From the IMG/VR virus record IMGVR_UViG_3300037153_000006, positions 1-31,134 of that record: 31,134 nt of DNA; one strand, given 5' to 3'. Made by a program: the position numbers and the translations under genes. The notes beneath the pieces were generated by a model. The model saw nothing but the letters and a program-made list of their open reading frames with translations, was not told where the DNA came from and did not search any database. This document shows positions 5,426 to 24,820 of the stretch, piece after piece; position 1 is the first letter of the stretch; every line of letters begins with the position of its first letter. The stretch comes from a virus.

Positions 5426-5836
5426 ATGTCGCGACCCGTTTTGAAATTTCGCGCCCGTCCTGCGTCAATGGCACACGAACAACCAACGAAGAAAACGTCC
5501 GCCGAACGCCTAGCGACAATCCAACGGATCGACGATCACGTCGCGAAGGTTCGCCGCCTGGTCGACGCGGCGCGCAATCGCCACATGCTAACCCGCATGA
5601 TGATCCGGTTAGCGCAGGCGGATCCCGCCGAACAGGATCCCGAAAAACTGAAGGCGGCAGAACACTACGTCAACCTGTTTACCGTTGCGCGCCCAGGTTG
5701 GCAGGCGGTACCCGCGGCGGAGAACTGCGGGCGAATCCTAGTCGCGGCGACCGTCGCGGCGACCGACAATTACCATTTTGCTGTCGGCGTCGCGTTGGGA
5801 TCGCGCGTAGTCCAACACCAAACCAGGGGGAAATAA
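5426..5836 (+). CDS. Hypothetical helical protein (lysogeny-side operon)
   Basis: 136 residues, not recognised. ATG 5426 follows AAGGAA by 8 bases; an inner ATG at 5468 is possible. Residues ~25-75 form charged helices (RLATIQRIDDHVAKVRRLVDAARN), the rest alternates hydrophobic and Ala-rich segments (ILVAATVAATDNYHFAVG). It is the first gene after the repressor, and its TAA stop is followed directly by the ATG of the next gene, so the two are probably co-translated. Function unknown. Confidence 0.72.
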   Translation: MSRPVLKFRARPASMAHEQPTKKTSAERLATIQRIDDHVAKVRRLVDAARNRHMLTRMMIRLAQADPAEQDPEKLKAAEHYVNLFTVARPGWQAVPAAENCGRILVAATVAATDNYHFAVGVALGSRVVQHQTRGK

Positions 5837-18771: not shown

Positions 18772-19083
18772 TCACGCGATTGCGGGATCGCGCAGGCGCG
18801 CCAGGCGCCGCGTAATCGCGTTCCATAGTTCTTCGTCGGGCGCGTCGACGCCGTAATCGTCGCCGCGATGTTCGTACAGGCCGGTTAGGACGTCCAGGAT
18901 CGCCGACTGCACGATCGGATCGTCGGCGGGCGTTCCGGGATCCGTCCAACGCGTTCGACCCGACAACACGAAATCGACGACGATCGCGGACGCCTGTTGC
19001 AGTTTTTGCGTCACGTCGGAATCGTGATCGTTGTCGGTAATCCGAAGATGCGTCTTCGCGTCGGCGAGTGTAAGAACCGCCAT
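18772..19083 (-). CDS. Head-tail connector (HK97 gp6-like)
   Basis: 103 residues. 'LTLADAKTHLRITDNDHDSDVTQKLQQASAIVVDFV' and the C-terminal 'AILDVLTGLYEHRGD' are typical of gp6-like adaptors that add a ring below the portal. Start ATG 19083 shares a base with the preceding stop (TAATG). A good match in length to the family (~100 residues). Confidence 0.85.
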   Translation of the reverse strand: MAVLTLADAKTHLRITDNDHDSDVTQKLQQASAIVVDFVLSGRTRWTDPGTPADDPIVQSAILDVLTGLYEHRGDDYGVDAPDEELWNAITRRLARLRDPAIA

Positions 19084-19568
19084 TACGCGCCGCCGTTCCC
19101 GTTCGTTTTCGCGTCGCGACCCTTCCGCACCATCAACCGCCAGGCGTTGATGTCGTTGCCAGGTCGAAACGTCGTCGGTTTGTTGCAATGCCAGGCGTTT
19201 CCGCCATGCGTGACGATGTCGCCGACAACGTACGCGACGCCTTCGCAATAGGCGCCCTGGTAACGCATCAACGGCAACACGATCGGAAACGTCTTCGCGA
19301 CGCCGCCGCGGGCGAACCGCAACGACAACGTTCGTTCGCCGTCGAAATCGACCGACACGTCGTCGATCCCTAATCCGTCGGCGCCTGGTTCGCCGCGTTC
19401 GCCGCGTTCGCCAGGCGGACCCGGAACCGCGGCGCGCGATTCGACAGCGCCCAACCGTTCGCCGATCGCGGCGATGGCGGCGTCGGTCGTCGCCATCCGC
19501 GCCAGGACAGGCGCGATCGACCGTTTGACCGTTCCGACGACGACGTCGGCGATGGCGTCAGGCGTCAT
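19083..19568 (-). CDS. Collagen-like and carbohydrate-binding head protein
   Basis: 161 residues. Residues 1-45 are helical (VKRSIAPVLARM, AAIAAIGERLGAVES), ~48-66 are Gly-x-y triplets (GPPGERGERGEPGADG), ~70-98 a beta part, and ~100-150 resemble the chitin-binding type 3 / CBM5-12 fold: YQGAYCEGVAYVVGDIVTHGG, NAWHCNK, INAWRLM. The two Cys may bridge. Located between portal and connector, it is probably a head decoration fibre that binds sugars on cell or environmental surfaces, like capsid-attached Ig-like proteins. It overlaps the portal gene by 11 bases. Domain reading is firm; virion location is inferred. Confidence 0.75.
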   Translation of the reverse strand: MTPDAIADVVVGTVKRSIAPVLARMATTDAAIAAIGERLGAVESRAAVPGPPGERGERGEPGADGLGIDDVSVDFDGERTLSLRFARGGVAKTFPIVLPLMRYQGAYCEGVAYVVGDIVTHGGNAWHCNKPTTFRPGNDINAWRLMVRKGRDAKTNGNGGA

Positions 19569-20958
19569 ACAACCCTTCCGCGATGGATTTTTGGTTCGTC
19601 AGGTAATACAGGCGCGCGACCATGTCGTCGTCGGTCGCGTCGTCGTCTTCGTTGTCGTCGGCGCCGTCCGTAATCGCCGCGGGCGGCGGCGTCGGTTTCG
19701 CGAACGGATCGTCGGCGTCACGCGCGCCCAACGCTTCGAGCGAATAGTTTTGCTGTTGTAAATACGGCGTGTCGCCGCCTGCGACGGGTCCAAGGTCGAA
19801 GTAGCGTTTTCGTGCTTCGTTCGGCGACAGGCAACCCGACCCGACGCCGTCCGCCGCCGCCTTCGTCTTCGTCGGCGTGTCCATGCGTAGCAGGTCGTTT
19901 AGATCAAATTCGGTCCCGTAGGGTTTCGGCAGTTCCAACCCTTCGTCGAGCGACAATTCGAAGTTTTCGATCAACGCCTGCAAACATTGCGAGTAGTACT
20001 GTTGATTCAACGCTTCGATGTTGTTGTAGTTCGGCGGCGGACCGACGCCGACCATGTACGACGGAACGTGGTAGCACGAACACACGGTTTCCGCCGTCCA
20101 TTTCAACTGGTCGATCAACTGCGCGTCGGTCGCGTTGACCGACATTGGTTCGTATTTCAATCCGTCGCCGAGTACCGCAACCTTGCCAACATTGTTCGCG
20201 CCGCCGAAGTTTTCGTCCCAGTAGTCTTTAACGCGTTTCGCGGCGTCGTCGCCGATCTGTCCTGGCGCCGTCAGGACGCCGCCAGGTTGCGACCCGTTCG
20301 CAAAAAACGTCGTCGAGTTTTCCTGAATTTTCAAACCCTGCGCCGCCGCCGACCCGCAGGCGTAGATCGGCGTGACGCCGATCAACGGATGGAACAAACA
20401 CACCATCGGGTCGTGAATGATTTCGCGGGCGGGAACCGTGATCGATTCGCCGTCCAGGTTCGACAGGTTGTCGCGGCGTAGTTCGTAGTAGACGGCGCCG
20501 TCAGGCGCGACCAAGGGAACAACGCGACACGGATCCAACACGTACAACGCGATAACAACGCCGCGGGCGTCGCGTTGTTTCAACACGTACGTGTTCCCGT
20601 GTACCAGCTTCGACGTTAGCCATTGTTCGACGAACTTGATCCGCGTTTGATAGCGGTTCGGTTTGCGGAGAACCGGCGAAAAGGCGGGAACGTCGACGGG
20701 CGACCAGATCCCGTTCGCGTCTTCGGCAACCAGGCGTAACCCGTTCTTCGCGATGTCGGACGCGATCAACGTGACGCAGGCGAACACGGCGAAGTACGAC
20801 AACGCCGTGTCCGACCCGATTTCGTCGTTTTTCTGCCAGGCGCCCGTGTACGGTTCGCGGACGACCGGAAACCAACCGCCCGATCCCCGTCGTCCTGCTA
20901 ACGGGTTCAAGGGTTGGCGTACGGTCGCCCGCGTAATATCGAATCCGAAGATTCGCAC
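19558..20958 (-). CDS. HK97-family portal protein
   Basis: 466 residues from GTG 20958, six bases after the capsid stop. Hallmarks: 'SDTALSYFAVFACVTLIASDIAKNGLRL', 'LVHGNTYVLKQRDARG', 'EIIHDPM', 'FFANGSQPGGVLTAPG', 'CSCYHVPSYMVGVG', 'YNNIEALNQQYYSQCLQALIENFE' in the HK97 portal order. Twelve copies form the DNA gate and bind terminase. The last ~40 residues are Asp-rich and likely flexible. Gene order here (capsid before portal) is reversed compared with HK97, where portal, protease and capsid follow terminase. Confidence 0.95.
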   Translation of the reverse strand: MRIFGFDITRATVRQPLNPLAGRRGSGGWFPVVREPYTGAWQKNDEIGSDTALSYFAVFACVTLIASDIAKNGLRLVAEDANGIWSPVDVPAFSPVLRKPNRYQTRIKFVEQWLTSKLVHGNTYVLKQRDARGVVIALYVLDPCRVVPLVAPDGAVYYELRRDNLSNLDGESITVPAREIIHDPMVCLFHPLIGVTPIYACGSAAAQGLKIQENSTTFFANGSQPGGVLTAPGQIGDDAAKRVKDYWDENFGGANNVGKVAVLGDGLKYEPMSVNATDAQLIDQLKWTAETVCSCYHVPSYMVGVGPPPNYNNIEALNQQYYSQCLQALIENFELSLDEGLELPKPYGTEFDLNDLLRMDTPTKTKAAADGVGSGCLSPNEARKRYFDLGPVAGGDTPYLQQQNYSLEALGARDADDPFAKPTPPPAAITDGADDNEDDDATDDDMVARLYYLTNQKSIAEGLYDA

Positions 20959-20964
20959 GTTGAT

Positions 20965-22377
20965 CTATTTCTTCGGCGTCGGCGGCGGCGTTGCCGTCCG
21001 CGCCGCGGAACCCGAACCCGCCGCCGCGCCGAGTAGCGCGCCGCCTGCGAACGGATAAACGGCGTCGGTTAGGTACTTCACCGCCGCAGTTCGCGCCCGT
21101 TGCCAGTTGATCATGCGTTCGGCGCGCAACCCGACCAGGTTGTTTTGCCACAGCGACGTAAACACGGTCGTTGCATCGGCGGGATTCATCGGGTTGTCCG
21201 CCATTTGCAACGACGCTTCGCGCGACACGTCGATCGCGATCCCGCCTTCGTCCGCGAACAGAATGTCGGGACCAGACAACGCGATCACGTTGGTTCCCGC
21301 GGCGTTCGATGCAACGACGTTGAACCCTTCCGCGGTTCCGCCCGCAACGCCCATGTTTGGAAACACTTTGTTTCCCTGCGCGTCGCGCAACATTCCCATT
21401 GCTAGGGCGTTGGTTTCGTTCATGATCAACGTGACGGTTCCGAGCGGATAACCCGCCGCGGCGAAATGCGACAGTAGCGCGCCCAAATCCGCCGACGGAT
21501 CGTCGGACGATGCCGCGGTCGCGGCGCCGTTTGTAATCGACGCAGGCGACACGTTCGCAACGACCGCGACCGCGGGATCAATGAACTGCACGTCAAGGAA
21601 CTGCGCGATCCCCGCGATCATTTCCTTGCGGACGATGTCTTCCGCCGACGGCGACGACAGTTTCGCCAATTCGTCGGTAATGACGATGATTCCCGCCGCT
21701 TTCGAAAATTGAATCGCGGTTGTCGTCAACGCCATTTTGGTAACGGGTTTCGGCGCGCCTTGACCGACCCACCCGTACGTTCCGCCGCCCGTTTGCAACG
21801 GAACTTGCGTATTGAATGGAACCTGTCGAAGATTCGGGATTTTGCCGATGATCGTCGCGGGTCGAAGCAATTCCAAAAATTCGTTCGTCGCGTTTTGGAT
21901 TTGCACCAGGACGCCCGCCCACGAAGGATTTACGGTATCGCCTGGCGCGACCGCCGCCTTGATCATCCATTCAACTTCGGGCGTCGAATCCTTCCACGCC
22001 TTGGCGTACTCCAAGGCGCGCATCGAATCGCCGCGGGCGCGCAATAGCGCCATCGCCGATCGAACGAACGCGGTTCCCTTCGGTACCGTCGGGCGAACCG
22101 ATACGATATTCCCGCCGCGTTGCGCGGACGCGTCCGCCTGGCGGTTGGTTGTCGTGATCGGCGTTGCCGCGGCGATGTTGGATTGTTCCAAGGTCCGCAG
22201 GCGCGACAAATGGTCGTCGATCCCTTTGACCTTGACGTCTAGCGCGTCGTATTCCTTCGCGTCGTCTTCGTTCAACGTCGCGCCCGTTTCCGCCGCCTTC
22301 GCCATCAATTCCGACATGCGGGTTACTAGCGGCGCGCGGGTATTACTCCATTGCGTGATCTGTTCGGTTGTCGTCAT
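20965..22377 (-). CDS. Major capsid protein from internal start
   Basis: 470 residues from ATG 22377, inside the fused frame. GGGGGA stands 8 bases upstream, one of the best sites in the window. The product would begin MTTTEQITQW, a typical start of an HK97 capsid delta domain: helical scaffold residues ~1-80, then a Thr/Ala-rich hinge (AAATPITTTNRQ), then the shell domain with 'WAGVLVQIQNATNEFLELLRPATIIGKI', 'YGWVGQGAPKPVTKM' and 'LWQNNLVGLRAERMINW'. It is expected to be the main capsid protein made, with delta removed by the protease. Confidence 0.75.
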   Translation of the reverse strand: MTTTEQITQWSNTRAPLVTRMSELMAKAAETGATLNEDDAKEYDALDVKVKGIDDHLSRLRTLEQSNIAAATPITTTNRQADASAQRGGNIVSVRPTVPKGTAFVRSAMALLRARGDSMRALEYAKAWKDSTPEVEWMIKAAVAPGDTVNPSWAGVLVQIQNATNEFLELLRPATIIGKIPNLRQVPFNTQVPLQTGGGTYGWVGQGAPKPVTKMALTTTAIQFSKAAGIIVITDELAKLSSPSAEDIVRKEMIAGIAQFLDVQFIDPAVAVVANVSPASITNGAATAASSDDPSADLGALLSHFAAAGYPLGTVTLIMNETNALAMGMLRDAQGNKVFPNMGVAGGTAEGFNVVASNAAGTNVIALSGPDILFADEGGIAIDVSREASLQMADNPMNPADATTVFTSLWQNNLVGLRAERMINWQRARTAAVKYLTDAVYPFAGGALLGAAAGSGSAARTATPPPTPKK

Positions 22378-22905
22378 GGGATGATTCCCCCGTGACGGTC
22401 CCGCGACGGCGGGTCGGTTATGGACGGACGCGTCCGATTGGTCTAACGCTTTAACGACGTGTATTGACGCAGCGACATTCGCAGGGATCGCGACTAGCGA
22501 CACTTCTAACACTTCGATCTGTCGGAATCGCAACCCGCCCGATTTCAATTGTTCGACGGCGTCATTAACGACGCGGAACCCGATCGAAATTCCCATCAAC
22601 AAACCCGCCTTGATCGAATGCCAGGCTTCGTCGACGCGGTCGCGAACCTTTCCAGGGTCGGCGACGGTCGGTAGCAATGCTTCGAACGGGATTCCGTCGG
22701 CGGTCGCCGTCTTCAACGTGGCGCGCCCGACGGGTTGGGTTTTGTCGTGATGGAGTAACAGCGGTAGCGGATTACGGAACGTGACGCCGTCGGCGTCGAC
22801 GATGTCGCCGTGTCGATCGGGTTCGGGCGTCGTCGCGATCCCGGCGATATAGCGGCGGTCGGCGTCGACCGCCTTGATCGTCAGGATCGAATAGGCGCGA
22901 TTCAC
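20965..22905 (-). CDS. Prohead protease fused in frame to major capsid protein
   Basis: 646 residues. Residues 1-155 are the HK97-type (S78) protease: 'RYIAGIATTPEPDRHGDIV', His52/His53 in LLLHHDK, Ser107 in GISIGF, and 'EVLEVSLVAIPAN'. Residues 156-176 link it to the capsid part (177-646; delta domain plus HK97 shell). The frame is open throughout. The start is GTG 22905 with no good binding site and an in-frame TGA just upstream, so the long form is probably rare compared with the internal capsid product. The protease cleaves the delta domain during maturation. Protease-capsid fusions are known; the dual start is the notable part. Confidence 0.93.
   Translation of the reverse strand: MNRAYSILTIKAVDADRRYIAGIATTPEPDRHGDIVDADGVTFRNPLPLLLHHDKTQPVGRATLKTATADGIPFEALLPTVADPGKVRDRVDEAWHSIKAGLLMGISIGFRVVNDAVEQLKSGGLRFRQIEVLEVSLVAIPANVAASIHVVKALDQSDASVHNRPAVAGPSRGNHPMTTTEQITQWSNTRAPLVTRMSELMAKAAETGATLNEDDAKEYDALDVKVKGIDDHLSRLRTLEQSNIAAATPITTTNRQADASAQRGGNIVSVRPTVPKGTAFVRSAMALLRARGDSMRALEYAKAWKDSTPEVEWMIKAAVAPGDTVNPSWAGVLVQIQNATNEFLELLRPATIIGKIPNLRQVPFNTQVPLQTGGGTYGWVGQGAPKPVTKMALTTTAIQFSKAAGIIVITDELAKLSSPSAEDIVRKEMIAGIAQFLDVQFIDPAVAVVANVSPASITNGAATAASSDDPSADLGALLSHFAAAGYPLGTVTLIMNETNALAMGMLRDAQGNKVFPNMGVAGGTAEGFNVVASNAAGTNVIALSGPDILFADEGGIAIDVSREASLQMADNPMNPADATTVFTSLWQNNLVGLRAERMINWQRARTAAVKYLTDAVYPFAGGALLGAAAGSGSAARTATPPPTPKK
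22386..22391 (-). promoter_or_regulatory. Internal ribosome binding site of the capsid part
   Basis: GGGGGA on the minus strand, 8 bases before ATG 22377, within the codons that link protease and capsid. It matches the site used by most genes here and supports a separate capsid product. Confidence 0.7.
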
Positions 22906-22961
22906 GGCGCGCAGGATCGCGCGACGTCAACCGTTCGCCTATTTTTGAGTACAAAACCTAC

Positions 22962-23147
22962 TTATTTGGAACGCTCAGAATTTTCGGATTCCGCTCGAGT
23001 ACGGCGGCGGATCCATTCCGCGATCGACACGCGATCGCGTTCGGCGGCGGCGAACATTTTGTCGTATTGCGTCGACGACACGCGAACCGTAACCGGGATC
23101 GATTCGTCCTTGTCGGCGATCGGCGGGCGACCAGGCGGGCGCGTCAT
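22962..23147 (-). CDS. Small ribbon-helix-helix protein
   Basis: 61 residues. N-terminal 'RPPGRPP' is AT-hook-like; 'SIPVTVRVSSTQYDKMFAAAERDRVSIAEWIRRRTRA' is a ribbon-helix-helix DNA-binding pattern (strand IPVTVRV, then two helices). ATG 23147 overlaps the terminase stop (ATGA). It may repress late or host genes, or help packaging. No other information. Confidence 0.75.
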   Translation of the reverse strand: MTRPPGRPPIADKDESIPVTVRVSSTQYDKMFAAAERDRVSIAEWIRRRTRAESENSERSK

Positions 23148-24820
23148 TTGGATCCCCCTACCACGAAGATTTGGTACTGCGGCGGCGGGTCGGCGGGTTC
23201 TTCGAGCGTTGCCAACTTGCGCGCCAGTAACGCGGCGATTACGGGATCGATCCGACCACGCGATTTCTTTTTGATCGGGTAAATGTTTTCTTTATTGTCC
23301 GTCTGTACAACCGCGTTCGCAATCGACCAGGTCATTAGATCGTTCCCGCCCGCGTCGATCTGTCCGTCCAAGACGTCCGCTTCGAACGCCTTCGACGGTT
23401 GCGACATTTGTTGGAACGTTTGCGGGATGTCGACGACCGCGAATCCGTCGTCGGACAATTGCTTCATTAGGTTGCCTGCGTTCCACGGATCGATCCCGAT
23501 CTGTTGGACGTCGTATTTGTCGGCGGCGGCGCGGACGATGTCGCGTACGACGTCCTGGTCGATCTGGTTTCCGGGATTCGTTCGCAGGAACCCGCGTTCA
23601 ATCCAGACAGGATACGGCGCGCGGTCGCGATGGGCGCGAACGACGACGGTATCGGCGGGCGTCAAAACCCACGGGATCAACCGCCAACGGGTTCGCGTTC
23701 CGTTGGGCGGGAACGCGGCGACGACCGCGGTTAGATCGATTTTCGACGACATGTCGATCCCGATCCAACACGGTTCGCCGCTTAGATCGTCCGGCGACCA
23801 AACCGATTGACCGCGGCGCCAACCTTCCAACGACAACCAGGGCGCCGACGTGTTGACCCAAATATCCAACCGCTTTTGTTTGAACGCGGCGGCGGCGGCA
23901 GGCATCGCGATCGCCTTCGTCGCCAATGCGCGTAAATCGTCAGGTTTGACCGACACACCATAGTTCGGATTCGCCTTTCGCCAGGTCCGTTCGTCGGTCC
24001 AATCGTCGTCAATGTCGGCGTGTGCAATGAACGCGAAGAACGTATCGTCGACCAGGACGCGATCCAGGATTTTGCAGGCGTAATCGTGTTGGTCGCCGCA
24101 GGGCGTAAACGGATCGTTTCCCGCGGTTGTGATTTGAAAATTGAGCGGTTGTTGGCGGGCGCCCGTCGCGGTTTCCATCACGTCGAGCATTCCGCGATCC
24201 TTTTGCGCGTGGTATTCGTCGTTAATGATTAGGTTCGGGTTCAATCCGTCGGTCGAATCGCGGTCGGCGCCGAGCGGTTCCAGCTTCGACGCCGACGAAT
24301 CGCGATGCAGGTTCGCGACCAGGACGGTAATTCGCGACCGCAGTTCGGCGGACGCCAACACCAACCGTTTGCAATCGTTAAAAACAATCTTCGCCTGGTC
24401 GCGTTTCGTCGCCAGGCAGTACCCTTCCGCGCCTGGTTCGCCGTCGAAGAACGACACGTACAACGCGACGATCGCCGCTTCGAGCGATTTCCCGTTCTTC
24501 CGCGGGATTTCGTTGTAGGCGGTTCGGAACCGTCGTAATCCCGTGTCGACATGGATCCAACCGAAAATCGATCCCAGGCGGAATCGTTGGTAGGGTTGCA
24601 AATGGATCCGTTGACCGGACCATTCGCCTTTGTAGTGTTTCAGGCGTTCGGCGAAGCGGAAAAATCGTTCCGCCCGTTCGATGTCGAACCGATACGGGAA
24701 CGCGGACGATACCTTCGTCGCGCGGTCGCGTTCGTGGCGCGCACACGATAAGACGTGATACCGACCCGCGGCGACCTGTCCCGAAACGACCGACCGCGCG
24801 TACGCGTCGATCGCGTGCAA
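23144..24820 (-). CDS. terL: Terminase large subunit
   Basis: 558 residues from TTG 24820 (AAGGCGG upstream). ATPase: adenine motif 'LQPYQRF', Walker A-like PRKNGKS (106-112), Walker B 'LIINDE' with Asp201-Glu202. Nuclease: Asp356 (WIGIDMS), Asp444 (IGIDPW) and an Asp near 494 (NDLMTW). This is the HK97/P27-type Terminase_1 family. The enzyme pumps DNA into the head and cuts it at packaging ends. It lies after the small subunit with one zinc protein between. Confidence 0.97.
   Translation of the reverse strand: MHAIDAYARSVVSGQVAAGRYHVLSCARHERDRATKVSSAFPYRFDIERAERFFRFAERLKHYKGEWSGQRIHLQPYQRFRLGSIFGWIHVDTGLRRFRTAYNEIPRKNGKSLEAAIVALYVSFFDGEPGAEGYCLATKRDQAKIVFNDCKRLVLASAELRSRITVLVANLHRDSSASKLEPLGADRDSTDGLNPNLIINDEYHAQKDRGMLDVMETATGARQQPLNFQITTAGNDPFTPCGDQHDYACKILDRVLVDDTFFAFIAHADIDDDWTDERTWRKANPNYGVSVKPDDLRALATKAIAMPAAAAAFKQKRLDIWVNTSAPWLSLEGWRRGQSVWSPDDLSGEPCWIGIDMSSKIDLTAVVAAFPPNGTRTRWRLIPWVLTPADTVVVRAHRDRAPYPVWIERGFLRTNPGNQIDQDVVRDIVRAAADKYDVQQIGIDPWNAGNLMKQLSDDGFAVVDIPQTFQQMSQPSKAFEADVLDGQIDAGGNDLMTWSIANAVVQTDNKENIYPIKKKSRGRIDPVIAALLARKLATLEEPADPPPQYQIFVVGGSK

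Follow-up and report, generated by a model that had tools for sequence, protein, structure and literature searches.

A conserved internal start at the protease-capsid junction of fused phage head genes, with a predicted capsid-only product

Described arrangements and the fused gene of the window

In phage HK97 the portal gene is located ahead of the protease gene, and the head operon consists of separate portal, protease and capsid genes in that order. This arrangement was not encountered in the window (the whole stretch analysed here, i.e. 31,134 nucleotides of IMG/VR virus record IMGVR_UViG_3300037153_000006), which displayed the order TerL (terminase large subunit) - protease/capsid - portal. 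In-frame internal starts inside a protease gene, giving rise to a shorter structural product, are a feature of phages lambda (C/Nu3) and Mu (I/Z). Their nested product is a scaffold, while the one predicted here is the capsid protein itself, composed of delta region and capsid domain; the window therefore departs from the lambda C/Nu3 type.

HK97 proheads contain ~60 protease and 415 capsid molecules and D3 proheads ~90 and 540, which amounts to about one protease per six to seven capsid subunits (PMC12749128). The gene of the window shares with HK97 gp4/gp5 and with D3 a prohead protease, an N-terminal delta domain on the capsid protein and the HK97 fold, in contrast to their separate protease and capsid genes. 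In Pseudomonas phage MD8, protease, scaffold and capsid are joined in a single gene, gp5 (PMC8508860). Unlike the window, MD8 carries a ClpP-type protease, and an internal start was not mentioned by its authors (PMC8508860). Within MD8 gp5 (L170:4371-6452), ATG220 is situated just past the protease and displays a Shine-Dalgarno sequence (SD; -6.9), so that MD8 may provide a third example of a start at the junction.

PHROG 617 includes Pseudomonas phage PAJU2 ORF3, annotated as 'prohead protease fused capsid protein', Escherichia phage JLK-2012 gp65 and Salmonella phage FSL SP-016. Its profile covered both parts of the window's protein (residues 2-617 against 10-626 of 626, 3.8e-128), and its members displayed the same full-length architecture (~39-42 % identity) and the same order of TerL, protease/capsid and portal. 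Their records annotate one product and no internal start, and the window differs from them by its long start devoid of SD. NCBIfam family NF045541 (scaf_prot_MCP2) likewise joins an S78-type protease to a capsid protein and has an SD-led ATG at the junction. The window is not a member of it, since it scored 44.2 bits, over the protease part only, against a curated cut-off of 525, and the capsid parts do not align. The nearly end-to-end match to PHROG 617, the annotation of PAJU2 ORF3 and the description of MD8 indicated that the fusion is real but already known. The initial annotation had counted the fusion among the novel features, and this did not hold, as such genes are already represented by PHROG 617, NF045541 and phages PAJU2 and MD8. 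What is apparently new is a nested gene with a dual start in which the capsid protein would be the inner product, in a known family lacking such annotation. No internal capsid start in fused genes was found in the literature, of which subscription papers were little covered, and this is weak evidence for novelty.

The proposal that a single frame of 646 codons holds both a protease and an HK97 capsid was borne out by profile matches to the two domains; the frame is located on the minus strand (Table 1). Within the 646-aa protein, Peptidase_S78 was matched with 45.2 bits (Pfam, cut-off 21), Phage_capsid PF05065 with 53 bits (cut-off 24.2) and TIGR01554 with 60.9 bits. Foldseek matched the capsid part to the capsids of Bxb1, D3 and HK97, which places it in the HK97 fold. 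His53 and Ser107 were invariant among 40 aligned relatives, and S78 protease activity is predicted. In the AF2 model the linker region was disordered (pLDDT <50 at residues 144-175), and the helices of the delta region began at residue 179, two residues past Met177. Maturation cleavage probably takes place near the conserved K316.

Table 1. Coordinates of the fused gene, its parts and its neighbours in the window
Feature	Position	Strand	Basis or remark
Fused prohead protease / HK97-fold major capsid gene, long form	20965..22905	-	GTG 22905, 646 aa; phrog_617 full length, 3.8e-128
Peptidase_S78 (prohead protease) domain	22450..22770	-	residues 46-152, Pfam
Conserved His and Ser codons of the protease	His53 22749-22747, Ser107 22587-22585	-	invariance among relatives
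Linker	22378..22449	-	residues 153-176, predicted disordered
Delta (scaffold-like) region of capsid protein	21958..22377	-	residues 177-316; AF2 model, alignments
HK97-fold capsid domain	21067..21888	-	residues 340-613; Pfam, Foldseek
GTG start of long form, no SD	22903..22905	-	
GATCCT, -10-like hexamer, 7 nt before GTG; possible leaderless promoter (inference)	22913..22918	-	
Hairpin enclosing long-form start	22890..22943	-	z -3.9
GGGGGA, SD-like word of internal start	22386..22391	-	8 nt upstream of ATG
Internal ATG, codon 177, predicted capsid-only start (470 aa)	22375..22377	-	kept in relatives
TerL, upstream	23144..24820	-	
Portal protein, directly downstream	19558..20958	-	

The junction start among fused and split relatives

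Including the window, 169 loci were gathered from viral contigs, from a set with one genome per species and from phage records; frame checking divided them into 138 fused and 31 split loci. These relatives are not independent, and clusters at 60 % identity as well as a second family (NF045541) were used. All 138 fused genes displayed an in-frame start at the junction (134 ATG and four GTG), located five to nine codons ahead of a conserved EQI motif. Mean pairing to the anti-SD, which is only a proxy for initiation, reached -6.42 kcal/mol at the junction against -3.04 kcal/mol at 1928 other internal ATGs. The corresponding means over 41 clusters were -6.78 and -2.90, the junction being stronger in 37 of them (p 1.2e-10). 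A position-free column scan of the fused gene recovered a conserved ATG with a strong SD only at the junction and at the gene start, and the same scan inside the portal and TerL genes yielded no comparable internal site.

Pairing at the junction also exceeded the synonymous-codon expectation (cluster means -6.62 versus -5.08, p 2.6e-6). This test was weak on single sequences, of which 6 % attained p<=0.05, and amino-acid choice carries part of the SD signal. Synonymous change was reduced just before the junction start (pS 0.295 versus 0.48). The synonymous-codon test, pS and the linker pN/pS given below were obtained with 140 fused loci including the split loci L143 and L160, the effect of which was very small. 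Junctions of fused relatives were less structured than random sites (-9.2 versus -13.9 kcal/mol). Judged by sequence, the gene thus has the make-up of a dual-start nested gene, with a conserved in-frame internal start and its own ribosome-binding site.

Homologues with separate protease and capsid genes, a search for which had been suggested as a check, were found in the 31 split loci, spread over many clades. Their capsid gene began at the codon homologous to the junction start and displayed its own SD, which supports the internal start; protease and capsid genes often overlapped by four bases (ATGA). On the capsid tree, 13 changes between the fused and split states were counted, at least 10 of which were forced by supported branches. 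A conserved C-terminal tail, with a consensus of about RVVKL..PARDRA.PFVIRSIKR, was displayed by 24 of the 31 split proteases and by none of the 138 fused linkers. From these patterns we infer that an unfused protease may be docked in the prohead by its tail, which fusion would make dispensable, a tether replacing the docking tail. Shared descent may account for part of the tail pattern.

Loci of the remote family NF045541 were parsed with motif-anchored frames. In each of the 26 parsed members, pairing at the best SD-led junction ATG was stronger than the average over the best sites of the gene's other stretches (mean -7.4 against -2.7, p 1.5e-8). A dual start thus seems to be characteristic of these fusions in general and not a peculiarity of a single clade.

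The starts of the window and their predicted products

Two further elements of the initial annotation, an ATG (22377) at the capsid junction with GGGGGA eight nt upstream and a long-form GTG without binding site, were verified in the sequence. Pairing to the anti-SD amounted to -8.6 kcal/mol at ATG 22377 and +0.3 kcal/mol at GTG 22905. Since 14 of the 15 GGGGGA sites of the window were followed by an ATG within 3-10 nt, compared to 6.8 % of random places, this word is the ribosome-binding word of the phage. AGGGGG was followed by an ATG at 12 of 12 sites, and other words of like make-up at 8 of 153. The GGGGGA sites, among which 22386-22391, 23153-23158 and 5826-5831, were a near-exclusive mark of gene starts. 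Base pairing between the GGGG of the SD and a UCCC that immediately precedes ATG 22377 can give a small hairpin; its stability was not above that expected for its composition (z -0.44), and the window's own junction was more structured than most of its gene. ATG 22377 may consequently need ribosomes arriving from upstream for its opening.

That ATG 22377 gives rise to a second capsid product in the same frame, as postulated, was strongly supported by the comparison of fused, split and NF045541 genes. This one gene thus very probably gives rise to a pair of nested proteins, of which the protease-capsid fusion would be the minor and the capsid protein the major one. Ribosomes initiating at GTG 22905 would produce a minor fusion of protease, linker, delta region and capsid (646 aa), and those initiating at ATG 22377 would produce, in larger amount, a capsid protein of 470 aa that includes the delta region. 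Both products would co-assemble, so that, within the prohead, a minority of lattice subunits would bear a flexibly tethered protease. This enzyme would cut off the delta regions, and also its own tether, ahead of DNA packaging. Such proportions would match the protease share of HK97 and D3 proheads. A low ratio of fusion to capsid is plausible given these proheads and given that, in the window, the GTG is devoid of SD and bound in a hairpin while the ATG is SD-led. A protease tethered inside the shell would fit the helical delta region following the linker and the absence of the tail from fused forms.

If only the 646-residue product were made, the protease of every subunit would be cut off in maturation and the GGGGGA-ATG would be incidental. 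The frame is indeed open throughout, its linker is under protein-level constraint, the SD of the window is partly bound in a hairpin, and the genes of PAJU2 and of MD8 (PMC8508860) were described simply as single protease-capsid genes. This explanation is nevertheless very improbable, as it leaves unaccounted an SD-led start exactly at the junction in each fused gene of both families, a capsid gene beginning at that same codon in split relatives, and the lack of a comparable site in portal and TerL. Conversely, two separate genes might share a frame by chance, the linker being an untranslated spacer and no fusion being made, and the occurrence of split relatives in many clades and the repeated interchange of states could be understood in this way. 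However, none of the 138 linkers contained a stop codon, although shuffled linkers were open only about half of the time. The joint chance of this was ~1e-15 over 43 clusters (in a set including two mis-sorted split loci), a statistic that is only supporting because fused loci were chosen by their open frame. Linkers vary, but their pN/pS of ~0.52 across the family, below 1, denotes purifying selection and hence translation of the long form too; in addition, conserved KSxD...AASG residues extend into the linker. A chance sharing of frame is accordingly given next to no credence, and the open linkers together with their pN/pS indicate that both products are likely made.

How the long form is initiated is a further question for the window's clade, which comprised about 60 loci, all of them fused. 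Its long starts were devoid of SD (-2.6 versus -7.2 elsewhere), while most relatives outside the clade displayed good SDs at both starts, a point against a low ratio of fusion to capsid. Synthesis of the long form from a leaderless mRNA, with a promoter just before the GTG, is considered possible rather than probable; it would add to the two-product explanation and is not opposed to it. A -10-like hexamer was located 7-9 nt before the long start in 27 of 50 dereplicated clade members compared to seven of 76 other loci, and nAnnCT was found at exactly 7 nt in 18 of 59 clade loci (0-8 at other spacings). Neither a -35 nor a sigma-70 promoter was found before the GTG, where only the position of the -10-like hexamer was non-random; moreover, GATCCT is a weak hexamer, and the hairpin over the GTG, specific to the window, could equally signal repression. 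The long start of the window may be leaderless rather than simply weak. In that case a missing SD need not mean weak translation, and the ratio would result from transcription and initiation mode together. A conserved hairpin over the long start was also considered as a general mechanism and dropped, as it was not conserved in the clade (mean z -0.93 versus -0.56) and was strong in the window only.

A more extensive generalisation is advanced as speculation and is rather unlikely to hold in full. Under it, fused protease-capsid genes would as a rule carry a dual start that has escaped annotation; in two remote families or more, most of the capsid protein would be made from the junction ribosome-binding site, and the tether would stand in for the docking tail of unfused proteases. 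In the window's clade, a leaderless long form and an SD-led short form would then be two initiation modes setting the ratio of protease to capsid.

In databases, each fused gene is annotated as one protease-capsid polypeptide. Should the junction start be used, the abundant structural protein of the virion would begin ~175 residues past its annotated start, which would bear on proteomics, structure building and capsid engineering. The dual start is a possible way for phages to hold the ratio of protease to capsid low after gene fusion. Fused and unfused relatives form a natural series on what brings the protease into the prohead, be it tail peptide or tether.

Composition and gene neighbourhood of the window

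GAG/CTC was depleted about fivefold on both strands of the window (94 occurrences against ~526 expected, observed/expected 0.18). The depletion spanned the whole window and all frames; TerL, for example, contained 21 GAA and no GAG codons. GGAGG was absent (28 expected) and GGCC displayed an observed/expected ratio of 0.11, while the GAG ratios of relatives ranged from 0.70 to 1.43. In line with this window-wide avoidance, GGGGGA apparently replaces the absent GGAGG.

The genes followed each other in the order small terminase, TerL, a 61-aa NikA-like ORF, protease/capsid, portal and connectors. The NikA-like (ribbon-helix-helix) ORF separated TerL from the capsid gene at positions 22962-23147; in several relatives of the clade the fused gene seemed to adjoin TerL almost directly. 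The gene past the portal (19083-19568) displayed a CBM5/12-like carbohydrate-binding domain, and its product matched the extreme C-terminal region of portal PHROG 2271, as though an appendage of the portal had split off into its own gene.
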